Assembly: GCA_963575645.1 (NCBI GenBank)
Contig: OY754468.1
Location: forward strand, 2,790,001 to 2,854,000
Length of the DNA: 64,000 nt
From: Xanthostigma xanthostigma
Taxonomy: Eukaryota; Arthropoda; Insecta; Raphidioptera; Raphidiidae
Direction of reading: 5' to 3'
The notes beneath the pieces were generated by a model. It was not told the origin of the DNA. It worked only from the letters and a program-made list of their open reading frames with translations, and ran no database searches. Below are positions 8,494 through 61,261 of this stretch, in pieces. The position numbers were made by a program, and so were the translations under genes. Position 1 is the stretch's first letter; the number at the start of each line of letters is the position of its first letter.

Positions 8494-9249
8494 CAGGGTG
8501 TCCTATTAAGAATGGGACATAGAACAACCGCAGATTCTCCAATTCAAAATAAAACGATTAAGCGAAATATGCTTAGATAAAATGTTACTCGTTTCCGAAA
8601 TACAGGGTGTTGAAGTTGAAAACTGAAAAATTATTAATGTCCATAATTTTTTTAATACACCGTATAATTTTACTCAAATCGGCACACTTGTTAAATATCA
8701 TAAAATGCACCTAACAATAAAAAAATTAGTTCAGTACGCTCTACCAGTGGCGTACGGCAGGAGTAAGTAATGCTTGTACCCCTTCTAAATGTTACGCCGC
8801 TGTCTAAATTTTAATTTTGACTATAATTTTAATTTTTTTGATATTTTCAAGTCAATAATGTACACTTGTTAGTCATTGGTTTTCGAGATATTCGCAGTTT
8901 TTTTAAGACAAAATTGTAAAAATGAATATTATTAATAATAATACAAATAAAAAGTAGGTACATGTCTATCTACCTTTAACTGCGAATATCTCGAAACCAA
9001 TGACTTTACAACAAACTATCAAGTGTACATTATTGACTTAGAAAATATTAAAAAAAAATAAAATTATAGTCAAAATTAAAATTTAGACAGCGGCGTAACA
9101 TTTAGAAGGGGTACAAGCATTACTTACTCCTGCCGTACGCCACTGGTAGAGCGAGTAACATTTTATCTAAGCATATTTCGCTTAATCGTTTTATTTTGAA
9201 TTGGAGAATCTGCGGTTGTTCTATGTCCCATTCTTAATGGGACACCCTG
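8494..9249. mobile_element. TA-flanked long-TIR element, copy 1
   Basis: The ends are TA|CAGGGTGTCC and GGACACCCTG|TA. The arms are several hundred bases long and pair around a short centre near 8890-8960. A second copy lies at 47599-48335. Ends of this type are common in insect mariner-like nonautonomous elements. No transposase is encoded. Confidence 0.85.
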
Positions 9250-13247: not shown

Positions 13248-13728
13248 TATATTAACTTCACTTGTAAGTTTGTATGTATGTAAGTCTGTATGTTTGTAAA
13301 CTCGTTTGGACTACAGCAAGTGGTTTATATAGTGGTATAATATGCCAGCACAGTAAGTACACTGGCTAGCCGTGCGGTCTAAGGCACGGGTCTTCGCTGA
13401 CGTCAACTCTCGGCATCACGGGTCGTGGGTTCTAATCCCGTCCACGCCGAAAAAAAAATTGTTTATTTTTCGGCAAATTTTTGACAATAAATCTAACTAA
13501 AAAGTGGAAAATAAATATAGTTTAAAAAAAACTAAAAAACACGCTTTATATCGAACTAAAAAGTAAAAAATTATTTTTTTAAAATAAGCTTAAAAAGCGT
13601 GGGGCGCTCGATGTACGAAAATGTGGAACAAAGTGCCCCACGCTTTTTAAGCTTATTTTTAAAAAAATATTTTTTACTTTTTAGTTCGATATAAAGCGTG
13701 TTTTTTAGTTTTTTTTAAACTATATTTA
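13248..13728 (+). mobile_element. Composite foldback element with tRNA-Leu-like head, copy 1
   Basis: It starts TACACGCTTTATATTAAC, carries a tRNA-like segment and ends in a palindrome of about 100-bp arms (13508-13728) built from AACACGCTTTATATCGAAC and AAATAAGCTTAAAAAGCGTG. The same order recurs at 17169-19245, where an 8-bp TATATTTT duplication flanks the element. It is therefore one mobile unit. Confidence 0.7.
13362..13450 (+). tRNA. tRNA-like segment (leucine/serine-type)
   Basis: GCCGTGCGGTCTAAGGCAC resembles the D-arm of class II tRNA-Leu, and GGGTTCTAATCCC is a box B with a paired T-stem. The anticodon arm is degraded. It is followed by a poly-A stretch. Confidence 0.55.
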
Positions 13729-13735
13729 TTTTATA

Positions 13736-14098: not shown

Positions 14099-14360
14099 AC
14101 AGTGTAAACTCCATTTAATGTCACTCGATATAACGACAAACTCCTTAAAACGTCGAAACTACTTAACTCTAGTTGGTTTACCTTGTTGCTCATGCAATGA
14201 TACACTCTACATAACGACACACCCACTGTAAATAACGACAACAATACGTCACCATTAAGCAATAAACAGTACTTGTTTGTGATGAGTATTTGAAAAGAAT
14301 TCCGTGGCATAAGGATCGAAAATGAAGCAATACTGAGATTTTTTTAAACTTGCATTTAAT

Positions 14361-14397
14361 ACTAACGTTTTGATACGTTTTGTATCATCTTCAGAGT
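14361..14397 (-). ncRNA. Hammerhead-like motif, core base changed
   Basis: This is the inverted partner of 14468-14504. It keeps CTGAAGA and the stem GATAC/GTATC but reads CAAAACGTT instead of CGAAACGTT, so the essential core G is an A. Confidence 0.4.
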
Positions 14398-14467
14398 GTT
14401 CAAATGCTGTCACATGTTATCAGTATATTGTATATTGTTGTATATTAACATGTGACAGCATTTGAAA

Positions 14468-14504
14468 ACTCTGAAGATGATACAAAACGTATCGAAACGT
14501 TAGT
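14468..14504 (+). ncRNA. Hammerhead-ribozyme-like motif
   Basis: CTGAAGA, one extra T, stem II GATAC-AAAAC-GTATC, then GAAACGTT. Stem I is ACT/AGT flanking the core. The ACGT gives a minimal stem III that could pair between two copies, as proposed for Penelope-like retroelement hammerheads. The extra base after CUGANGA is unusual but known from a natural viroid hammerhead. Confidence 0.5.
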
Positions 14505-14703
14505 ATTAAATGCAAGTTTAAAAAAATCTCAGTATTGCTTCATTTTCGATCCTTATGCCACGGAATTCTTTCCAAATACTCATCATTAACTTCAATGGAT
14601 CACAGTTACTCTATTTATTGAATAGAGTCAATCTTCAAGTACTTGTTTGTTATTTTGTTGCCTTGTTGTCGGCGTCATGCGTACCGAAGATTCTAAGAAA
14701 TAC

Positions 14704-15390: not shown

Positions 15391-16457
15391 TATAGGCTAG
15401 ACGGCGAGGAGGTAAAAACATTAAAAAGTGTATTATTCGGGCACAGGCGAGATTATAGTTGGAGTCGCTTCGTTTTAGGGTGTAGTTCAACCCCCTAAGT
15501 TTGCTTACAAATTGTTGGTGTGCTTGATTTTATAATTAACAATTAGTAACGAAAATAGCGTTTTTTTCTCTATTTCCTTTAAGATCTCCGTTCCTCTTGA
15601 CTTTTAGTATAGCATATGCATTGAGAAAGTTGTTCCGATCACTTTTTTTTGTTTCCTAAATTGCAAATTGCGCCATTTTTTTCACAAACGGGTTTCGCTG
15701 GTCGGACCAAGCCAGAAAAATCACAAATCCATTCAACTTTAGTATCCCGTTGGAATTTTTGGAAAAAATTAATTCTAACCGATTTTATAACGATTGAATA
15801 TTGGAAAAGTTATATGGTTTTATACGTTTGTCTAAAATTGGTATCGCTAAAGAAATCATTATAAAATCGGTTAGAATTAATTTTTTCCAAAAATTTCAAC
15901 CGGATACTAAAGTTAAATGTATTTGTGATTTTTCTGGCTTGGTCCGACCAGCGAAACCCGTTTGTGGAAAAAATGGCGCAATTTGCAATTAAGGAAACAA
16001 AAAAAAAGTGATCGTTAATTACTCGAGAAGTAATTGACCGATGACGCTAAAATTTACAACATAGACATCATTTTTGAGAATTTCCAGCCATCTATGTGCG
16101 GTCATTTTTTAGTAAAAAAATAGTGAAAAAAACGTGTTTTTTAAACTTTCGGGGCTATTTGCAAGTTAACAATTGCACTTAGCGACCTCTGTCAGTGCTC
16201 ATTTTTGAGGAAATTTCATAAGGAACAACTTTCTCAATGCATATTCTATACTAAAAGTCAAGAGGAACGGAGATATTAAAGGAAATACAGAAAAAACACT
16301 ATTTTCGTCACTAATTGTTAATTATAAAATCAAGCACACCAACAATTTGTAAGCAAACTTAGGGGGTTGAACTACACCCTAAAACGAAGCGACTCCAACT
16401 ATAATCTCGCCTGTGCCCGAAAAATACACCCAAAACTCCTCGCCGTCTCACCTATTA
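15391..16457. mobile_element. Long inverted-repeat element, about 1.07 kb
   Basis: The ends are TATAGGCTAGACGGCGAGG and CTCGCCGTCTCACCTATTA. The outer arms (about 15391-15640 and 16225-16457) and a second inner inverted pair (about 15640-15790 and 15860-16010) nest inside one another. The 63-71-residue frames within it are mirror products of the arms and not genes. Confidence 0.8.
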
Positions 16458-16991: not shown

Positions 16992-17066
16992 ATGAACCAT
17001 TTAAAATGTCTGACACCTCGAATATGTCGAACATATTCGAGGTGTCAAACATTTTAAATGGTTCAT
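16992..17066. repeat. Hairpin, about 36-bp arms
   Basis: ATGAACCATTTAAAATGTC and its inverted partner flank the GACACCTCGAATATGT/ACATATTCGAGGTGTC core, with two mismatches. Confidence 0.8.
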
Positions 17067-17114
17067 TCATTTGATTAGAAACTAATTATTAATTAATTTT
17101 TATATTTTTTAGAT

Positions 17115-17156
17115 CAGTTCTGAAAAAGGTCCAAATCCGTACCGAAACGTTAATGT
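17115..17156 (+). ncRNA. Degenerate hammerhead-like motif
   Basis: CTGAAAA replaces CTGAAGA (core G lost), stem II GGTCC/GTACC is imperfect, and GAAACGTT is kept. Probably inactive. Confidence 0.35.
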
Positions 17157-17291
17157 ATTAATTTTTATATTTTTACACGCTTTATATTAGTTTCACTTAT
17201 AAGTCTGTATGTATGTTTGTTTGTAACCTCGTTTGGACTACAGCAAGTGGTTTATTACCGTTAGTATGTTATGCCACTACTGTAAGAGCAA

Positions 17292-17565: not shown

Positions 17566-18627
17566 GAAAAGAAGTTTGACCCTGCAGGCCATCCCTGTAA
17601 CTTCCCGCTATTTTCGAGTTCAAAACGCTCAAAAATATATAAAATATAGCAAGAAGTTTATTTTTTAGCTCTTCGAGCTCAAAAAAAAAACACTTTGTTA
17701 CGAAATTTTCTTTCACTATATCTCATGAACAAATGAACCGATTGTGATGCGATTTGCAGCAGTCGACTCAATTTTTTATCCTAAAAAAGTAATTTATTAC
17801 AGAAAAATCGATCTCATAGGAATTTTACGGGCAATTTAAAAAAAACACTTTTTTACAAATTTTTCGTTCACGATATCTCGTGAACAAATGAGCCGATTTT
17901 GATGCGGTTTGCGTCGATCGACGCAGTTTTTTTAGCCTAAGAAAGTAAATTATTAGAAAAAAATTGATTTGAGAAGAATTTTACGAGTAATTATAAAAAA
18001 TTACTTTTTTCCTAATTTTTCGTTCACGTTATCTCATGAACAAATGAACCAATTTTGATCTGGTTTGCAGCGATCGACGCAGTTTTTTTAACCTAAGAAA
18101 GTAAATTATTACAAAAAAATCGATTTGAAAAGAATTTTACGAGTAATTATAAAAAATTACTTTTCTCCTAATTTTTCGTTCACGTTATCTCATGAACAAA
18201 TGAACCAATTTTGATCTGGTTTGCGGCGATCGACGCAGTTTTTTTAGCCTAAGAAAGTAATTTATTACAAAAAAATCGATCTGATAACAATTTTAAGAAT
18301 CATTTTAAAAAAACACTTTTTTACGATTTTTTCGTTCACGGTATCTCGTGAACAAATGAACCGATTTTGATGCGGTTTGCGGAAATCGACGCAGTTTATT
18401 AAGGAGAAGAGCTGATTAGATTTTGGAATTAATCGGTTTAGTAGTTTAGAAAATATTTTACAAAAACAAATTTTTAAAAATTTTTGAAACTTGTTTTTTT
18501 AAGATTTCTCAAAATTTTTTGGGCCGAATCGTTTCAAATTTTCAGGAAGTCTAAGTTCACCAAGATCACGTCAGATGCCGCAAACCGCGTTTCAGTCGGA
18601 CACTCCGTTCAAAAGATATAAAAGGTT

Positions 18628-19189: not shown

Positions 19190-19303
19190 ACTTTTTAGTT
19201 CGATATAAAGCGTGTTTTTTAGTTTTTTTTTAAACTATATTTTTTGTTAATATATTTATCTGAAAAATTGGTCGACAATTTTATTTATTTAATACCTTTC
19301 AGT

Positions 19304-21802: not shown

Positions 21803-22466
21803 AAAATTGGTTGTCTGTAAAATCGGTTTACGGACGATATATCATATTATATCATATTTAATAATCACGCACAGGGTCAGGCGGAACGTTAGGATCGTTA
21901 CACTTTTTCGTGCATGCAGCCGGTGTTTCATCTTTTTAACCAACTTCAACAAAAAGGAGGAGGTTCTATGTTCGTCTGTATATTTTTTTTTTTTTATGTA
22001 TGTTCACCGATTTCTCCGTCAATTATGGACCGATTTTCAAATTTTTTTTTTTATTCGAAAGAGTGCACCTCAGAGGTGGTCCCATCGGAACCAAGTCAGG
22101 ATCTGATGGTGGAATCCGGAGAAATCGAAGGAAACTCTCAAATTTCAAAGAAACGCATAATGTTTTTTATGTGTGTTCACCGATTTTTAGTGTTAGATTA
22201 ACACTAAAAAGAGAAAAATAAAATATTTTTAACAAAAAAATTGAACCGACTTCACACTAAAAAGTACAAAATAATTGCGTATTGAAATGTTTTGGAGTCG
22301 GTGTCAGCCAAACTGAAATCTATTTCGAGAACTACACCGACTCCAAAACATTTCAATACGCAATTATTTTTTACTTTTTAGTGTGAAGACGGTTCAATTT
22401 TTTTGTTAAAAATATTTTATATATTGACGTGATTCATCAATTTATAAGACGTTATCACGTCAAAAA
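21803..22466 (-). repeat. Family A repeat, copy 3, interrupted
   Basis: The reversed 3' end TTGGTTGTCTGTAAAATCGG is at 21809 and the reversed start AGACGTTATCACGTC at 22447-22461. Between 21938 and 22425 lie a repeat opening AACCAACTTCAACAAAAAGG and a palindrome. The frames of 73-99 residues here cross repeat joints. Confidence 0.7.
22219..22421. repeat. Palindromic MITE, about 85-bp arms
   Basis: AAATATTTTTAACAAAAAAA and TTGAACCGACTTCACAC mirror their complements, with GTGTAGTTCTCGAAATAGA near the turn. The palindrome includes TATTGAAATGTTTTGGAGTC and its inverted copy. Confidence 0.85.
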
Positions 22467-23513: not shown

Positions 23514-24315
23514 TAAATTAATTAATGTATACATATTGTTTTTTTAAATAGATCCAAACAATAGAAAACCAAAATCTCCATTTCTTAGTATAACAGTTGT
23601 TAAATATAACAAAGAATCGCATTTTACAAAAATCCAGGAATCTTTCTAACGCGGAGTGAAATCTAAAAATAAATAAATTTGAATAAACAAGACAAGATGT
23701 TCCAGCTTTGTACAATGGGACAGTTTCAACAGTTGACAGCCTCTGTTGGGACTGAGAAATCAGTGACGTCAGGTGTTAAGCTAAGGATGAGACGACGTGT
23801 AACCCGATTTTGTTCGGGTACTCGATTTTGAAAGCTTAACTTACGTGCAGGATACTTGCCGCTCTTTACCCGATTGAACTTTGTCCCTACAGTATGGCAG
23901 ATTTATTTTAATATTGCATTTTGTATACTGACGATTTGTACCTCATTAGAGCCATGCAAATACACCTTTATTATTATTATCGATTGTAGATAGCAGAAAA
24001 TTCGTCCTGTATTTTTCATAGCATCATCAAAGAGTTCATACCCAACCTTGAACACTTCCGAACTTCGTCATACTGTTCAAGGAACCAGCAAAAACTATTT
24101 TCATCACGAATCCTAAGATCATAAGATCAGTGCCATAGCTGAATTCATCGGCGTCTACAGAAAGATTCTATGTCGTGCCCTCAAAACATTTTTGGTTGAC
24201 ATATTCAACTAAAACATTCACAATCGCATGGCTGATGGCGCCTTGATGCGGTCCCCGGTTGTCAGACACTGGTTACGGCGCTGCTGGAATCAAGGAAGAT
24301 TTAAATCTTTGATTA
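23514..24315. other. No gene recognised
   Basis: Moderately AT-rich sequence with balanced codon-like texture in places but no frame over 65 residues. Possibly old unique DNA. Confidence 0.45.
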
Positions 24316-24393
24316 ACGTCTGATTAGAACTCTTCAATAAATAAAATTATCGAGCAATTTTTCAGACAATATATTAACAAAATATAATTAATA

Positions 24394-24433
24394 CATTAAC
24401 GTTTCGATCCCGATTTGGATCTTCTTCAGAACG
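24394..24433 (-). ncRNA. Hammerhead-ribozyme-like motif
   Basis: Minus strand: CGTT, CTGAAGA, extra A, stem II GATCC/GGATC, GAAACGTT, AATG. Stem I pairs CGTT with AATG (one G-U). Confidence 0.5.
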
Positions 24434-24519
24434 GATCTATTTATTTTTAACGAAATTACTTTCGTTAAAAATAAATAGAAACTAAATAAGTATTAATTAT
24501 TTTTTTATATTTTTAGATC

Positions 24520-24559
24520 CGTTCTGAAGAAGATCCAAATCGGGATCGAAACGTTAATG
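24520..24559 (+). ncRNA. Hammerhead-ribozyme-like motif
   Basis: Same layout as 24394-24433 on the other strand: CGTT-CTGAAGA-A-GATCC-AAATCG-GGATC-GAAACGTT-AATG. Predicted cleavage would fall after GTT, before AATG. Confidence 0.52.
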
Positions 24560-24877
24560 TATTAATTATATTTTGTTAACATATTGTCTGAAAAATTGGT
24601 CGATAATTTTATTTATTCAAGAAAGATTTAGATCAGGTACGGTGGGGTGACCGTATGGACAAAGATAAGAAATCAATTGGAATTTGGAGAACGTTTTCAA
24701 ACACAACTGACAGGAATTAACGGAAACATCTCTCGAGGAACACTGATAATTGGGACGACTGAAGACATTTCCTGACAACACCATGGCTTACCTGTGTGGC
24801 TTTCTGTTCGGGTCGTTTTGGGAAATTTACGGGTTTCGTCAACTGAATTCAGAACACAAACGGGATAATGCATATGT

Positions 24878-25612
24878 TACGGTTTATACCGGAATTCGGT
24901 CAATGACTGAAATAAATGCGCAAGACTAGTTTTGAACAACGAATATTGCCCAAACCCGAAATCTTACATTTAAACGGGTATTGACTGTGATCAAATGAGG
25001 AATACTAGTTTTGCGTATTTTCAGTTGGTCAAAACTAATTCTGCCCATTTCTAAACGGACAGTACTAGTATGGCATCATAATCTTCTTTGCGTTTTTTAA
25101 TTAACTTTTCCACACCAACGATACTTATATCAAAGTGATTTATTCTTCTGTATTGTTTAGCAAACAGAGGTTTTAATTCAGCTTTCAACAAATTTGCTTT
25201 CTTAACCTCACTTAGTGTAGTAAGGTAGTTATGTTTCGTCATAAAATTATGTTTCAGAAGCCTCCAATAGCCGAACTAGATGAGACTCGAATTCACCTTG
25301 CATTTTTACTTAATTATTACACATAATATCCCACCAGTATATTAATTGTAACATTCAGGAGAACTATTCAATAAGTAAACAAGAACATAACCCTCCTTTT
25401 ATTCGGTTTCGGACGTTGATTGAATGAAACAAGCAGAACTAGTATTGTCCGTTCAGAAATAGACAGTACTGAAAACGCGCAGAACTAGTATTGCTTATTT
25501 TATAACACTCAATACCCGTTTAAATGTAAGATTTCGGGTTTGGTAAATATTCGTAAAACTAGTTTTGCACATTTATTTCAGTCATTGACCGAATTCGGGT
25601 ATAGACCGTAAC
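24878..25612. mobile_element. TIR element inside unit 1
   Basis: Ends GTTACGGTTTATACCGGAAT and GAATTCGGGTATAGACCGTA are inverted over about 190 bp. The motif ACTAGTTTTGC/ACTAGTATTG recurs several times within the arms. The imperfect flanking duplication (about 8-9 bp) would fit hAT or Mutator-type insertion. The core encodes a 63-residue frame (separate entry). Confidence 0.72.
25051..25242 (-). pseudogene. Possible short coding remnant in the TIR element
   Basis: The 63-residue frame includes LSEVKKANLLKAELKPLF, KQYRRINHFDISIVGVEK and LIKKRKEDYDAI. The lysine-rich, helix-like composition is unlike chance frames in this AT-rich DNA. I do not recognise the family. It could be a fragment of the element's own protein or noise. 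Confidence 0.3.
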
Positions 25613-25965
25613 ATACATACGATTACAAGCAATCATTTGAATGTCGTTTAAATTGTAGGCAACACGGAATCAATTGGAATTTGGAGAACGTATTTGGAAG
25701 ACCACTAACAGGAATGATCCTTCGAAGAACGCTAAAAATAGGGACGACTGAAAACACTTCCTGACGCACACCGTGGATATTTCTGAGGTGACAGCTTACC
25801 TGTGTGGGATGACTTTATTCATACTTATTACGAATGGATTTCTGTTCGGGTTGTTAAGGAAAATTTACGGGTTTCGTCATCCAAATTGAGAACACAAACG
25901 GGATAATGGATATACGATTACAAACCATCATTTGAATGTCGTCTAAATTGGAGGCAAGACGCGAG

Positions 25966-33800: not shown

Positions 33801-34671
33801 CTAGCGGCCCGGTTCGGCTTCGCCCGAATTTGCGGATTGTTACCATTTCATTTTAACGCGATAATATATAGCCTATGTCCATCCTGAAGAACCATTTTAA
33901 ATATTGATGAAACATTTTTGAAATCGGATGTCTAGTTTCGGAGATTACCACCTACATCCAAATTTACAAACTTTACGTCTTTAGAATATTAGTATAGATA
34001 ATGTTTAAAAGCGTGGGACACTCGATGAATTAAATGAATTATAGCAGAGCCGGCAGATGTCGCTATTTGGTACTAAATCGGATGTGTAGTTTCGGAGATT
34101 ACGTCTCCTACATCCAAATTTACGAACTTTACGTCTTTAGAATATTAGCATAGATAACGTTTAAAAGCGTGGGACACTCGATGAATTAAATGAACTATAG
34201 CAGACCCGGCAGATGTCGCTATTTGGTACTAAATCGGATGTGTAGTTTCGGAGATTACCTCCTACATCCAAATTTACAAGCTTTACGTCTTTATAATATT
34301 AGTATAGATAAAGTTTAAAAGCGTGGGACACTCGATGAATTAAATAAACTATAGCAGACTCGGCAGATGTCGCTATTTGGTACTAACCGGATGTGTAGTT
34401 TCGGAGATTACCTCCTACATCCAAATTCACAAGCTTAACGTCTTTATAATATTAGTATAAAGTTTAAAAGCGTGGGACACTCGATGAATTAAATTAACTA
34501 TAGCAGACCCGGAAGATGGCGCTATTTGGTACTTAAACAGTTTTTTTTTTAGAAAATACCGTAATTTTGTACAATATATTTAATAAAAACTATCGTATTG
34601 CGTACGTTGCACCAAGCAAGACACATTTACAAAATTTCATTAAAATCTGTTCAGTGGTTTATTTATATAGA
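33801..34671 (-). mobile_element. Helitron with internal tandem array
   Basis: Reversed 3' end A|CTAGCGGCCCGGTTCGGC and reversed 5' end GTTTATTTATATAGA|T. Four units of about 155 bp (listed separately) fill most of it. Simple, single-unit members are at 39359 and 41337. Confidence 0.83.
33918..34545. repeat. Tandem array, about four units of 153-156 bp
   Basis: TAGTTTCGGAGATTAC occurs at 33933, 34087, 34243 and 34396 (steps 154, 156, 153). Each unit contains AAAAGCGTGGGACACTCGAT and CAGATGTCGCTATTTGG. Confidence 0.9.
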
Positions 34672-36689: not shown

Positions 36690-36860
36690 CTCAAACATTT
36701 TTAACTTCACACTAATTATGAAATCATTTTTTATATTTTTTTTAGCTCAAGTATTATTCAGAGGAAAATCCTAATCCAAATCGAAACGTCAATTGTGCTA
36801 TTAATTATTTTTTTTAATAAATTGCCTGAAAAATAGGTCGAAAATTTGATTTATCTCTTT
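36690..36860 (+). repeat. Diverged PLE-like fragment
   Basis: CCAAATCGAAACGTCAATTG and CTGAAAAATAGGTCGAAAAT align with the unit at 24520-24622. The hammerhead core is lost. Confidence 0.5.
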
Positions 36861-37325: not shown

Positions 37326-37833
37326 TACAATGTACACTCCATTTAACGTCACTTTAACGATAAACTCCTTAAAACGTCGAAATTACTTAACTCTAGTTGG
37401 TTTACCTTGTTGCTCATATACAATGATACACTCTAAATAACGACACACCCACTCTAAATAACGACAACAATACGTCATCATTAAGCAATAAACAGTACTC
37501 GATTGTTATTTTGTTGCTTTGTTGTCGGCATCATGCGTACCGAAGATTCTAAGAAATTCGTTCTTTTGTTTGTTGGGATTATCTTTCATATGTTTAGCTC
37601 AGTTGCTTATCGATAAGTTATCATATTCTTAGTTGCCCACAAACTTGCAAACTGTGAACATGGCGAGTAAAAGAAAATCTTTGTGTATTGACGAAATTTA
37701 TTAATACGCGTAATAGAGGCGGGAGAAAAGGTAAGTGATAGTAAAAAAATATCTTCTCTTCGTTTAACGACAACTCTCAATAACGCCACAAAGTGCACAG
37801 TCCCTTGAGTGTCGCTATATAGAGTTTACACTT
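37326..37833 (+). mobile_element. pogo-like deletion derivative
   Basis: Left end TACAATGTACACTCCATTTA and right end ATATAGAGTTTACACTTTA are inverted. The first codons of a transposase survive inside. The partner at 14099 lacks the right end. Confidence 0.78.
37660..37739 (+). pseudogene. pogo-type transposase N-terminal remnant
   Basis: The start reads MASKRKSLCIDE; after a frame change the sense continues LIRVIEAGEKVSD. This is the first helix region of the CENP-B-like N-terminal helix-turn-helix in pogo/Tigger/jerky proteins (MASKRK.L...K...I...E.G.K...I). Only about 27 codons remain. Confidence 0.66.
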
Positions 37834-45568: not shown

Positions 45569-46395
45569 AGAAAACTGAGAATGAAAATTACGGAAATATC
45601 CTTTTTGTTTCTCTTCAAGAATTCAGACACATATTTTAATACAGTTATTTGAAACAGGTTTTTTTAAAGGACAGGAACAAGCAGTAACTGTTATTCAAAA
45701 AGAACTGTTTTACACATCACGTGATGAAATTAAGGAAATATCTGTGTTTTTTGTTTCTCTTCAAGAATTCAGACACAATATATTTTACAAAACTTATTTT
45801 AACACAGTTATTTGAAACTGGTTTTTTTAAAGGACAGGAACAAGCAGTAACTGTTATTCAAAAAGAACTGTTTTACACATCACGTGATTAAATTAAGGAA
45901 ATATCTGTGTTTTTTGTTTCTCTTCAAGAATTCAGACACATATTTTACAAAGGTTATTTTAATACAGTTATTTGAAACAGGTTTTTTTAAAGGACAGGAA
46001 CAAGCAGTAGCTGTTATTCAAAAAGAACTGTTTTACACATCACGTGATGAAATTAAGAAAATATCTGTGTTTTTTGTTTCTCTTCAAGAATTCAGACACA
46101 ATATATTTTACAAAACTTATTTTAACACAGGTTTTTTTAAAGGACAGGAACAAGTAGTAGCTGTTATCCGAAAAGAACTGTTTAACACATCACGTGATGA
46201 AATTAAGGAAATATCTGTGTTTTTTGTTTTTCTTCAAGAATTCAGACTCATATTTTACAAGACTTATTTTATTACAGTTATTTGAAATAAGTTTTTTTAA
46301 AGGACAGGAACTAGTAGCTGTTATTCGAAAAGAACTGTTTTACACAACACAAGATGACCTCAACTTTAACGTAGATGCCGTAATAAAGAATACGT
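45569..46395. repeat. Tandem array, about five units of 150-163 bp, each with an E-box palindrome
   Basis: CACGTGAT starts at 45718, 45881, 46041 and 46191, with a worn unit at 46348 and another before 45718. Each unit has CTTCAAGAATTCAGAC and GGACAGGAACAAGCAGTA. ATCACGTGAT is a 10-bp palindrome. A 133-residue frame across it is not kept in phase by all units. Confidence 0.88.
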
Positions 46396-47598: not shown

Positions 47599-48335
47599 CA
47601 GAGTGTCCCATTAAGAATGGGACATAGAACAACCGCAGATTCTCTAATTCAAAATAAAACGAAATACGGGTTCGGTTGTTGAAGTTGAAAACTGAAAAAT
47701 AATTAATGTCCATAATTTTTTTAATACACCGTATAATTTTACTCAAATCGGCACACTTGTTAAATATCATAAAATGCACCTAACAATATAAAAATTAGTT
47801 CAGTACGCTCTACCAGTGGCGTACGGCAGGAGTAAGTAATGCTTGTACCCCTTCTAAATGTTACGCCGCTGTCTAAATTTTAATTTTGACTATCTTTAAT
47901 TTTAATTTTTTTGATATTTTCTAAGTCAATAATGTACACTTGTTAGTTTGTTGTAAAGTCATTGGTTTTCGAGATATTCGCAGTTTTTTTAAGACAAAAT
48001 TGTAAAAATGAATATTATTAATAATAATACAAATAAAAAGTACATGTCTATCTATCTTTAACTGCGAATATCTCGAAAACCAATGACTTTACAACAAACT
48101 AACAAGTGTACATTATTGACTTAGAAAATATCAAAAAAATTAAAATTATAGATAGTCAAAATTAAAATTTAGACAGCGGCGTAACATTTAGAAGGGATAC
48201 AAGCATTACTTACTCCTACCGTGCGCCACTGGTAGAGAGAGTAACATTTTATCTAAGCATATTTCGCTTAATCGTTTTATTTTGAATTGGAGAATCTGCG
48301 GTTGTTCTATGTCCCATTTTTAATGGGACACCCTG
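47599..48335. mobile_element. TA-flanked long-TIR element, copy 2
   Basis: TA|CAGAGTGTCCC and GGGACACCCTG|TA. It is collinear with 8494-9249, including TACGCCGCTGTCTAAATTTT-type arms. Confidence 0.85.
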
Positions 48336-50388: not shown

Positions 50389-50772
50389 AAATACCCCCTG
50401 CACCCTTCATCTCAAATCTTTTCCCCTCGCCTAAAAACTGTTCGCGCTCTCCCGACGCTATTTTTAAAGCTAGAGGGTTCTGGTAAACGCCAAATTAAAG
50501 ACAAAGAATCAGACTACAGATCCTTCAGGCGAATTTTTTGAAAAAAAAAATCCTGAAAAATCTTACAACCTTTTGAAAAAAATAATAAGTTACGTAATAT
50601 ACGTAGGCGAAACTATTTTTCAAAAAAATCGCCTGAAGGATCTGTAGTCTGATTCTTTGTCTTTCATTTGGCGTTTACCAGAACCCTCTAGCTTTAAAAA
50701 AAGCGTCGGGAGAGCGCGAACAGTTTTTAGGCGAGGGGAAAAGATTTGAGATGAAGGGTGCAGGGGGTATTT
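50389..50772. repeat. Palindrome with about 150-bp arms
   Basis: AAATACCCCCTGCACCCTTC and its complement GAAGGGTGCAGGGGGTATTT are the outer ends, and TTCAGGCGA/TCGCCTGAA lies near the turn. Foldback-type MITE. Confidence 0.87.
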
Positions 50773-51090: not shown

Positions 51091-51163
51091 CCCCGGCTGG
51101 CTCAATCGGTAGAGCGTGCGACTGTCAATATCAGGGTCGTGGGTTCGAGCCCCACGTTGGGCG
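51091..51163 (+). tRNA. tRNA-like sequence (Lys body, GTC anticodon) inside a Helitron
   Basis: D-arm GCTCAATCGGTAGAGC and a perfect T-arm GTGGGTTCGAGCCCCAC. The anticodon loop is CTGTCAA (GTC, as in tRNA-Asp), but the body matches tRNA-Lys, and stem TGCGA/TATCA has two mismatches. This is a second subtype shared with 60450-60522. Confidence 0.78.
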
Positions 51164-55084: not shown

Positions 55085-55117
55085 GCTTAAATAATATATT
55101 AACGAACTAAAAAGTCT

Positions 55118-55253
55118 AAGGCCTAGTTTATATGAGAGGCGTTCAACGCGCGTTGGCCCAACGCGCGTTTAAAACTTCTATACAATTGTATAGAAACTGT
55201 AAACGCGCGTTGGGCCAACGCGCGTTGAACGCCTCTCATATAAACTAGGCCTT
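55118..55253. repeat. CpG-rich perfect palindrome
   Basis: Arms of nearly 60 bp start AAGGCCTAGTTTATATGAGA and contain AACGCGCGTTGG. Each arm also holds its own smaller palindrome around GGCCCAACGCG. It stands out sharply from the AT-rich flanks. Confidence 0.88.
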
Positions 55254-55589
55254 AAGGTCGCTGGAGCCCAGCTGGTCAACTTAGATTTTATTTCTACATG
55301 CCCCTCTGCACCCGCAAAAGCCTATGTTACGAGCATATAAATGCAAAATGCACTATGGAAGAAGATTGATTCGTACATTATCGGATAATTTGATTTCACT
55401 AATTTTATTGATACGAATATCTGCGAAGAATTTATATCTTTTGTGTTACTGTTTCGTTTGCAAACACATTATTGCAGCGGCGTAGGTATAATAATATAAT
55501 AAATATAACTATTTGGGCGTTCATCTAAGCATATCAAGAGATAAAAAACATGCGAAATAAAAAGTGTCTCATACATTTTATTACATTTA
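55254..55589. other. No gene recognised
   Basis: Unassigned stretch. Confidence 0.5.
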
Positions 55590-55980: not shown

Positions 55981-56089
55981 AGTGAACGACTAGAATGCCT
56001 TCGCTAATTTTGAAGCAGATATCATCAACCGATTGAGATGAAAATTTGTATACACGTTTAGTTTGAATGACAATGCATGGTTAGCTGTG

Positions 56090-56380
56090 TGACGTCACTC
56101 TAATTCCAATATGGCAGACTTCTAAAGATGGCGGACTAATTTTATTATGCTTTCCTACAATATGGGTATCAAATGAAAGGGTTTGCTGAGAATAATTCGA
56201 AAAATAAAGTGACGTCACTCTAAATTCAATATGGCGGACTTCTAAAGATGGCGGACTAATTTTATTATGCTTTCCTACAATATGGGTATCAAATGAAAGG
56301 GCTTGCTGAGAATAACTCGAAAAATAAAGTGACGTCATTCTAAATCCAATATGGCGGACTTCTAAAGATGGCGGACTAAG
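56090..56380. repeat. Tandem repeat, 120 bp, about 2.4 units
   Basis: GTGACGTCA starts at about 56090, 56210 and 56330, exact 120-bp steps. Units contain AAGATGGCGGACTAATTTTA and GGTATCAAATGAAAGGG. Because 120 is divisible by three, the minus strand stays open across it. Confidence 0.9.
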
Positions 56381-56382
56381 TT

Positions 56383-56582
56383 TTTGACGTGATAACGTCT
56401 TATAAATTGATGAAACACCAGCTGCATGCACGAAAAAGTGTAACGTTCCGTAACGTTCCGCCTGGCCCTGTGCGTGCAAGCGAGAGCGCAGTAATTTATT
56501 ATTAAATATGATATTCCAGCGGAATACGTTATCACGTAAAACTATCGTCCGTAAACCGACTTTACAGATTACCAATTTTTTT
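56383..56582 (+). repeat. Family A repeat, copy 10
   Basis: TTGACGTGATAACGTC to ACAGATTACCAATTTTTTT; it interrupts the third 120-bp unit. Confidence 0.82.
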
Positions 56583-56589
56583 ATTACTT

Positions 56590-56905
56590 TTTCTTTTAAG
56601 GGTTCCGGACCCGAAGGGTGCCAACGGAACACTATTACTAAGCCTCCGCTGTCCGTCCGTCCGTTTGTCAGCAAGCTGTATCTCATAAACCGTAGTAGGA
56701 TAATTGAAATTTTCACAGTGTGTATTTCTATTGGCGCTCTAACAACAAATAAATCAAGATGGCAAATTTCAAAATGGCCGCCATAATCATTAAAAAAACC
56801 TCCTATAGTGTCTTTGTGCGTAATCGTTTTTGTGCTATCTCCTTGCATTCGTATTACTTCCCTGCACCACGACGGCGAATTTCGAATAGATGTAATTAAA
56901 TTATA
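56590..56905 (+). repeat. Lepidopteran interspersed repeat fragment
   Basis: TTAAGGGTTCCGGACCCGAA, TGTCCGTCCGTCCGTTTGTC and AAACCGTAGTAGGATAATTG are hallmarks of a very common lepidopteran repeat (from memory). The 92-residue frame inside is not a gene. Confidence 0.6.
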
Positions 56906-57478
56906 CAATTACTTGCCAAATTTTTACATATTGTTATAGCACTTCTCTTGTTTCTTTTACAAAAGTGTTTTAAAAGTATGTGGAAATATTGGGTTCAAAT
57001 ATCCCTCTCTTAAGATATCTTATTTTAAAAGTGAAAGTTTTCTTTTCGGATAACATTTGGTAAACGCATTATCAATCCTGTAAAAGGATTTATTTTCTTT
57101 CTTAGAAGTAAAGGTAATTAATACTCAAATTACGAGTCATAAAACCTAGGTATAATTTCACCGTAGAATAGACCCAAAATATTACAAGAGGTAAAAGGAC
57201 AGTTGTTAATAGTTAGTTCTCTCTGATCTGTGACACTATCAAGACATACTTCCAATACTGTATTTTGAATAAAAGACAATCTTTAATAATTAAACTCTTC
57301 AATTATTTAATAAATACACCGTCACCGAATCCATAATCCCAACAAAGTACACAGTGTTTTATCTTGTACGATGGTAGGGAGCCCTTCGTGTGCGAGTTCG
57401 ACTGGCACTTGACCGGTTTAATTTTAATTGCAAAGGTAAAAATATTAAAAATATTACATGTTACCTTCTAATATAAAA
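56906..57478. other. Unassigned, with one repeat tail
   Basis: GGGAGCCCTTCGTGTGCGAG at about 57378-57418 is the same tail as at 13191. Otherwise nothing recognised. Confidence 0.45.
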
Positions 57479-60626: not shown

Positions 60627-60835
60627 AATTTTTGATTAACGTCTGATTAGAACTCTTCAATAAATAAAATTATCGACCAATTTTTCAGACAATATATTAA
60701 CAAAATATAATTAATACATTAACGTTTCGATCCCGATTTGGATCTTCTTCAGAATGGATCTAAAAATATAAAAAAATAATTAATACTTAGTTTCTATTTA
60801 TTTTTAACGAAATTCGTGAAAGATTTTTTTAATAA
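60627..60835 (-). repeat. PLE-like single unit
   Basis: TTTGATTAACGTCTGATTAG to TTATTTTTAACGAAATTCG, one arm of the dimer at 24316-24622. Confidence 0.65.
60717..60756 (-). ncRNA. Hammerhead-ribozyme-like motif
   Basis: Minus strand: CATT-CTGAAGA-A-GATCC-AAATCG-GGATC-GAAACGTT-AATG. Stem I is fully Watson-Crick here (CATT with AATG), where the dimer has a G-U pair. Confidence 0.52.
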
Positions 60836-61261
60836 TGAAAAAATAATAACAAACAATTTTTTATTACGTAGTCATGGAAATAATTGTGAGCACCTAAAAA
60901 AAAATAAAAAATTATTAAAAACAAAATATTATTTTAAAATAATATTATATAGGTATAGGTATTACTTAAATTTTCTGTATCTAATTGAGCATTGAGAGAA
61001 TTTTTATTTGATTTTATATGTAACATTTCCGAAATAGGTATACATCTCTTTACATTTATATTTATTCGACACTAGATGACGCATACATGTAAATATTTTC
61101 ATCAAAAATGGAGGTTTGAGATTAAAATAAGTAGCAAAGCAGGGAACTGCCGAAAACTGCAAAAAATTTGGACACAACATTCATCTCGGTAAACTAAGAT
61201 GAATGTCCCTCCCTTCCCCATTATGTTTTTCCACCCGGGTGAAACCGGGCGGGACTGCTAG

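Follow-up and report, generated by a model that had tools for sequence, protein, structure and literature searches.

A head-to-head pair of truncated Penelope-like element pLTRs in Xanthostigma xanthostigma and the one-tail regularity among its sister copies

The window analysed here is a stretch of 64,000 nucleotides (C5:2790001-2854000) of the 623-Mb genome of the insect Xanthostigma xanthostigma. Near 24 kb it contains an inverted repeat with 109-nt arms that are 97% complementary and have 74 nt in between, and the predicted fold of 24316-24622 reaches -170.2 kcal/mol (z -25.8). It is very likely (probability about 0.85) that the segment 24304-24616 is a single insertion of a Penelope-like element (PLE), consisting of two 5'-truncated pLTR copies in head-to-head arrangement between the two copies of a 14-nt target duplication (Table 1). 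The starts of the two arms are nearly equal, at unit positions 1 and 3, and only one arm carries a tail. A sequence-only reading of the window had described 24316-24622 as an inverted pair with two hammerhead-like cores; the two outward-facing cores are real, but the limits of the element had to be corrected to 24304-24616. Nor is the pair the perfect palindrome that had been claimed: three of the 109 arm positions are mismatched, and 38 nt of the right arm are missing from the left one. A 12-nt duplication from 24296 was dropped for the 14-nt one once the sister copies had given the rule. Directly adjoining the insertion, 24631-25960 looks like another mobile element, with inverted and direct repeats nested in one another (197 nt at 81% and about 250 nt at 67%).

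Table 1. PLE-related features of the window
Feature	Position	Strand	Basis or remark
Family A PLE insertion, truncated head-to-head pLTR pair, 313 bp	24304..24616	.	limits set by target-site duplication; arms mapped to single copy
Target-site duplication, left copy TCAAGGAAGATTTA	24290..24303	.	14 nt, 1 mismatch; 0/20 shifted controls as good
Target-site duplication, right copy TCAAGAAAGATTTA	24617..24630	.	pairs with left copy, 14 nt, 1 mismatch
Left arm, minus-strand sense, tail present	24304..24457	-	38 nt near the centre, present in the right arm, are missing
Right arm, plus-strand sense, tail absent	24460..24616	+	mapping to single copy and duplication limits
Tail, left arm only, ends GTTAATCAAAGATT; inner limit approximate	24304..24331	-	pair comparison with sister copies
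Predicted RNA hairpin; family A no-tail arms begin inside it	24318..24367	-	94-nt stretch, z -3.7, 1/200 shuffles as good
Left-arm hammerhead-like core; cut predicted between 24398 and 24397	24398..24429	-	pattern and stems
Right-arm hammerhead-like core; cut predicted between 24555 and 24556	24524..24555	+	pattern and stems
Family A copy, pLTR and tail, reaching 5' into PLE ORF; core 60721-60752	60631..61036	-	mapping reference copy
C-terminal end of PLE endonuclease ORF (ISEMLHIKSNKNSLNAQLDTENL...), stop included	60934..61035	-	ORF remnant, same ORF as L077
Decayed family A relative	17076..17173	+	similarity
Decayed family A relative	36711..36854	+	similarity
3' fragment, family A relative	19238..19292	+	similarity
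Second head-to-head PLE-type insertion, family B, right arm tailed	14281..14637	.	arms and duplication
13-nt target-site duplication AGTACTTGTTTGT, left copy	14268..14280	.	family B insertion flank
13-nt target-site duplication, right copy	14638..14650	.	family B insertion flank
Unoccupied counterpart of family B target, AGTACTCGATTGT, 2 differences	37494..37506	+	related repeat in window
Family B hammerhead-like core, right arm	14471..14501	+	core pattern
Left-arm core of family B; GAAA altered by one G to A	14364..14394	-	similarity

Both cores at 24 kb read CTGAAGA-A-GATCC-6 nt-GGATC-GAAACGTT. The hammerhead order that had been recognised in each arm (CTGAAGA, stem II, GAAA) is therefore present, and so are the CGTT/AATG pairing of stem I directly beside the core, with one G.U pair, and the self-complementary ACGT of stem III. 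A degenerate core pattern matched the window four times (24398-24429, 24524-24555, 60721-60752 on the minus strand and 14471-14501 on the plus strand) and found no match in 100 dinucleotide shuffles; the match at 60721-60752 is a third intact copy of the family A core. Neither this copy nor the family B pair at 14 kb figured in the sequence-only reading. A wider survey covered L077-L103 together with the window, requiring stem II but not stems I or III and permitting 0, 1 or 2 extra bases. It returned 12 distinct stem-II-positive cores, of which nine have a self-complementary stem III as well as a stem I of 2-7 bp. Since the search demanded stem II only, stems I and III are independent support. 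The other three, having neither stem I nor stem III, were set aside as chance. Two of the nine (L086 and L088) are only one base apart, and in 20 shuffled windows a single stem-II-positive site turned up, with no site having all stems. Stem III is palindromic in all nine (ACGT in six, with ACTAGT, ATGTACAT and ACATGT once each), and the sequences of stems I and III vary between families with their pairing retained; CGTT and CATT both occur against AATG in stem I.

One-base insertions between CUGANGA and stem II have a precedent in viroids. The extra base had been regarded as a departure, yet exactly one is present in all nine distinct cores (A in two, T in seven), which suggests that the insertion may be general among the PLEs of this genome. 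Where the base is T a CUGANG-AUG is formed; a stop follows this AUG within nine codons in family B and in the L099 family, where it is therefore not the ORF start. Rfam gave no hammerhead at the gathering threshold over the window and none at E<=10 over 24300-24640, where its 14 matches were mostly miRNA-type hairpins. Since nine core-bearing PLE loci likewise gave none at the gathering threshold, Rfam 15 is blind to this variant here. Core positions of the sister copies contain 7 mismatching cells of 1655, and positions 105-155 contain 49 of 3148 (p 3e-4); because the loci were found by a query that contained the core, no weight is placed on this contrast. In viral contigs, 18 and 14 stretches match the core patterns; inspected by eye, some of the 18 can form stem II and, apart from the pattern itself, none is like family A or B.

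The sequence-only reading had placed these cores with the Penelope-like, dimer-requiring type of hammerhead that is linked to GIY-YIG/RT proteins, and cores do adjoin PLE frames elsewhere in the genome. At L077 a 149-aa frame (VVYKINCENCAKNYIGQTKRALKTRIKEH ... ILDNETNFFKRNISEMLHIKSNKNS...) ends about 180 nt before the core and matches Pfam GIY-YIG with E 8e-4 and 20.1 bits, against a curated cut-off of 22.6. Searching the genome with this frame gave at least 150 matches (150 of 3162 candidates scored). The matches listed include open frames of 835-837 aa and one of 1249, together with adjacent minus-then-plus pairs such as C9:15660077 and 15663942; a single pair, C5:5749492 and 5750490, has the opposite order. 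The family A pLTR region lies directly 3' of the frame in 15/15 fetched loci, in one of them (L135) only as positions -221 to -34. The proposed linkage with both domains is seen at L137, where one 374-aa frame with the pLTR and a core downstream has a partial RVT_1 match (E 8.7e-6, 26 bits, cut-off 29.6) and a GIY-YIG match (E 0.0012, 19.5 bits, cut-off 22.6). All RT and GIY-YIG matches of the family A frames tested (L077, L137) are thus under the Pfam curated cut-offs, and a 276-aa family A frame (L128) has no Pfam match.

A set of five frames was also compared with Pfam. L089 and L095, of other families, have both RT and GIY-YIG above the cut-offs; of the remaining three, one has RT only, one GIY-YIG only and one is without a match. 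Among the best 120 of 428 relatives of the L089 protein, those with names come from insects (Euphydryas, Phthorimaea, Diabrotica and others). A search of the genome for the GIY-YIG family gave at least 37 matches (150 of 521 candidates scored), and among 20 fetched loci, some of them overlapping, a core is found within 1.5 kb in 12 and is absent in 8. L099, which belongs to another family, combines a core-ORF(804 aa)-core tandem with a perfect head-to-head pair. The 24304-24616 insertion is an ordinary member of a large PLE family in this insect genome.

This linkage bears on whether the inverted repeat could instead be a DNA transposon or MITE with long terminal inverted repeats and a chance likeness to hammerheads. 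The window is rich in other inverted repeats (31 pairs of at least 35 nt within 400 nt) and only two of 13 that were inspected carry a core, as such a reading would have it. It does not account for the association with a PLE ORF, for one-sided tails and 12-18 nt duplications, or for nine cores with matched stems and a pattern that 100 shuffles did not match. We consider it scarcely credible, and the ORF-linked copies refute it for practical purposes. Several other long and highly symmetric inverted repeats of the window have no hammerhead core (47808-48237 and 8737-9153; 50389-50772; 15643-16006; 13508-13732; 22218-22420; 55117-55254). None of these core-less repeats has a clear 12-14 nt duplication, and they are probably unrelated foldback or MITE elements. 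The window also holds short satellite-like arrays at 17684-18397, 33921-34533 and 45632-46357 (units of 156, 156 and 160 nt) and a tRNA match at 51091-51163 (Rfam, 39 bits) inside a dispersed repeat that is also present near 20.5, 9.4 and 60.4 kb and is possibly a tRNA-derived SINE. A protein search with the frame at 56084-56908 found one relative.

To place the 24-kb insertion among its sister copies, the genome was searched with the right arm, which gave at least 57 matches (40 of 720 candidates scored). The 39 family A loci examined are all those in that listing, 37 fetched and the window's two, and were mapped on the real single copy at window 60631-61036. A second arm query served for family B (40 of 1409 candidates scored, 20 loci examined), and neither query contained tail sequence. 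Head-to-head pairs with the 5' ends at the centre make up 32 of the 39 family A loci and, under the pairing rule, 13 of the 20 family B loci. The inverted arrangement, which had been thought unusual, is therefore the majority form here as well as a published one for PLEs. Seven family A loci gave no pair under the rule (L040, L042, L052, L057, L059, L076 and the 60.7-kb copy of the window), of which L042, the same locus as L077 and L124, proved to be a pair after all in longer sequence. No direct tandem array of the unit was found within the approximately 400-nt flanks of the 39 loci; L050 and L040 each have two fragments in the same orientation, and at L050 and L054 a neighbouring fragment lies tail to tail. 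Within the window, a 36-bp near-perfect hairpin (16992-17066) stands immediately 5' of the decayed relative at 17076-17173.

An outer duplication of 13-18 nt was found in 26 of the 32 family A pairs (23 at 13-14 nt), equalled by none of 10-20 shifted controls, and every one of these 26 has exactly one tailed arm. The tailed arm ends ...GTTAATCAAAGATTTGAA and the other stops about 28 nt earlier, at ...TTTATTTATTGAA. The six pairs without a convincing duplication count against this rule, since three of them break it: L043 has both arms tailed and L044 and L046 neither, the other three (L068, L074 and L075) having one. In family B all 13 pairs have a 12-14 nt duplication (0/16 controls as good) and exactly one tail, here about 50 nt long; two further family B loci, L108 and L111, appear to be single-arm insertions between 12-13 nt repeats, as judged without controls. 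Nine more pairs with larger interiors were tested likewise, with 32 shifted controls each. Six of them (L124, L126, L127, L132, L133 and L110) have duplications of 12-17 nt (0/32 controls as good) and one tail each, and three (L125, L134 and L123) have one tail and lack a convincing duplication. Exactly one tail is therefore present in 45/45 convincingly duplicated pairs (26 of family A, 13 of family B and the six further ones). Duplications are mostly 13-14 nt long in family A (L040-L076) and mostly 12-13 nt in family B (L104-L123), a difference that suggests an element-specific spacing of two nicks. What is new here is the regularity of one tail per duplicated pair; head-to-head pLTRs, one-sided tails, duplications and pLTR hammerheads are already published features of PLEs. 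Among the titles and abstracts listed for PLE priming, PLE hammerheads and head-to-head PLEs, none states this rule.

These pairs bear on how PLEs insert, and with dozens of pairs in two families and clean duplications the choice between fold-back and two-strand priming becomes testable by counting. We think it probable, if far from certain, that the pair arises by cutting of both target strands, priming at a distal and a proximal site and joining of the cDNAs. The PLE protein would cut the two strands about 13 nt apart and each target 3' end would prime reverse transcription of the element RNA. One strand would prime at the distal start site, which would yield the tail, and the other at the proximal site, which in family A would lie inside the predicted hairpin. 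The two cDNAs would stop at unrelated points and then be joined, often via short overlaps. The alternative is that a single cDNA (or antisense RNA) folds back and primes a copy of its own strand, as has been proposed for rotifer PLEs owing to palindromes at their junctions, according to the available text of PMC3846280.

Several observations at the pairs suit fold-back. The centre of 24304-24616 is a 20-bp inverted repeat with a 4-nt loop, and the nearly equal arm starts of this pair would also be explained. The variant at unit position 60 has the same letter in both arms at 15/15 loci, four of these G/G, which points to a shared source. At several other variable sites the arms often disagree (6/31 at position 138 and 8/27 at 157), and discordance is greater in the poorly aligned 5' part. 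A perfect palindrome is also present in a PLE of another family, where L099:5868-9009 consists of two 5'-truncated copies with 1572-bp arms that are 100% identical and adjoins a tandem PLE copy. It is either a fold-back product or an assembly artefact.

Under fold-back, one particular arm would have to carry the tail. In 15 of 21 clear family A pairs (two-sided p 0.08) the tail is on the longer arm, which agrees with this, but in the other six it is on the shorter, and this split weakens fold-back. The 21 clear pairs leave out 11 of the 32; counting all 29 pairs with one tail, the tailed arm exceeds the other in length in 15, falls short of it in 12 and equals it in two. Within a pair, the 5' start of one arm is not correlated with that of the other (Spearman -0.10, p 0.61, n=29), again contrary to fold-back, and fold-back alone leaves the two different fixed 3' sites of the arms unexplained. 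We therefore regard it as an unlikely origin of the pairs, and the pattern favours reverse-transcription priming on two target strands at two start sites.

The junctions and start sites can be set beside two-strand priming in the same way. Of 32 junctions 19 are clean, and 12 of these 19 show overlaps of at least 4 nt, compared with 5.3% of joins in simulation, although BLAST ends may inflate the overlaps; the 13 that are not clean comprise 11 with 3-52 extra nt and two overlapping by 49 and 69 nt. The hairpin at the early end of family A has z values of -3.6 and -3.7; the corresponding family B stretch is not significant (z -0.7). Hammerhead cleavage as the origin of the arm 5' ends is not supported, the 58 starts being spread from -221 to 143 with four at 88-93, shortly before the predicted cut after 94, and none at 95. 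We would give even odds to the stronger proposition that PLE insertion is two-ended and intrinsically asymmetric, one strand always using the distal start site and the other always the proximal one. If so, an asymmetric protein-RNA complex would give the two target strands different roles, and the two cDNAs would afterwards be joined where they share a short overlap. PLE insertion would then normally yield head-to-head pLTRs, which would not be a by-product of self-priming.

The fate of the cores within an inverted pair was considered separately. The 24-kb cores are, judged from motif and stems, the minimal dimer-type hammerhead carried by PLE pLTRs. A transcript through the pair is predicted to form a hairpin of -172.9 kcal/mol against -107.6 kcal/mol with stems I and II forced, a cost of about 65 kcal/mol, so that such a transcript should bury its core. 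This does not sustain the earlier view of the pair as a working ribozyme arrangement, in that the sense core would be paired with its antisense copy. Furthermore, a head-to-head transcript contains one sense core only, and a dimeric stem III requires two. Taken singly, an A-type core has stems I and II in its MFE structure; for the G-type core of the 24-kb pair another pairing is favoured, both alone and cofolded, and the cofold of two sense G-type cores shows a competing intermolecular duplex. The hammerhead, if active, would work on transcripts with two sense units and not on the inverted pair, which is best read as an insertion product and not as a ribozyme device.

It could be argued that the palindrome is itself functional: as an inverted dimer with two ribozymes, it would spread in the manner of a foldback or retrozyme-like element. 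The great stability of the structure and the frequency of head-to-head pairs speak for this. Against it, the junction points vary by locus, which means that pairs arise anew with each insertion, and single arms and ORF-bearing copies exist; the predicted burial of the cores in the duplex speaks against it as well. We hold this reading to be very improbable, and continue to treat the pair as the product of a PLE insertion.

Head-to-head pLTRs are a described form of PLE insertion, and for inverted pLTRs the 2013 rotifer paper, in its available text, leaves two templates possible (PMC3846280). The insertion at 24 kb and its sisters resemble Pen2a_Av of Adineta vaga in having head-to-head pLTRs, a short duplication and an ORF with GIY-YIG and RT; elements of this type in A. 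vaga likewise have AT-rich targets, and one of their inverted pLTRs may end 3' in a tail of about 31 bp. They differ from A. vaga, as it is described in that text, in that many insertions here consist of two pLTR pieces only, the duplications are 12-18 nt (mostly 12-14) instead of 8-10 nt and exactly one tail is present in every convincingly duplicated pair (PMC3846280). They also resemble Poseidon of Anolis carolinensis (PAc), which has a hammerhead at the pLTR/ORF start, an internal RT start and a tail bounded by two RT start sites (PMC11167929). PAc cleaves and extends both target strands in vitro, which fits two-strand priming; the 2024 paper describes the later insertion steps as unvalidated (PMC11167929). 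Since PAc showed no strand difference in start site in vitro whereas the pairs here use one of each, the one-of-each rule is an additional and unexplained regularity. The PAc ORF is reported to begin inside the ribozyme, at the CUGANG-AUG position (PMC11167929), where family A has AAG and family B and the L099 family have an ATG that is soon stopped.

The minimal type I hammerheads of PLEs were reportedly described by Cervera and De la Pena in 2014 and by Lunse et al. in 2017. They are without a closed helix III and are thought to act as dimers, according to the available parts of PMC7761336 and PMC6155905, and the cores here are likewise without closed helix III and of the dimer type. With metazoan retrozymes, as portrayed in the available text of PMC7229834, the family A copies share short non-autonomous units, type I hammerheads, low GC and duplications of >4 bp. 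Retrozymes are direct tandem repeats with canonical hammerheads, whereas family A consists of head-to-head pLTR pairs with minimal cores, and some of its copies carry PLE ORF sequence.
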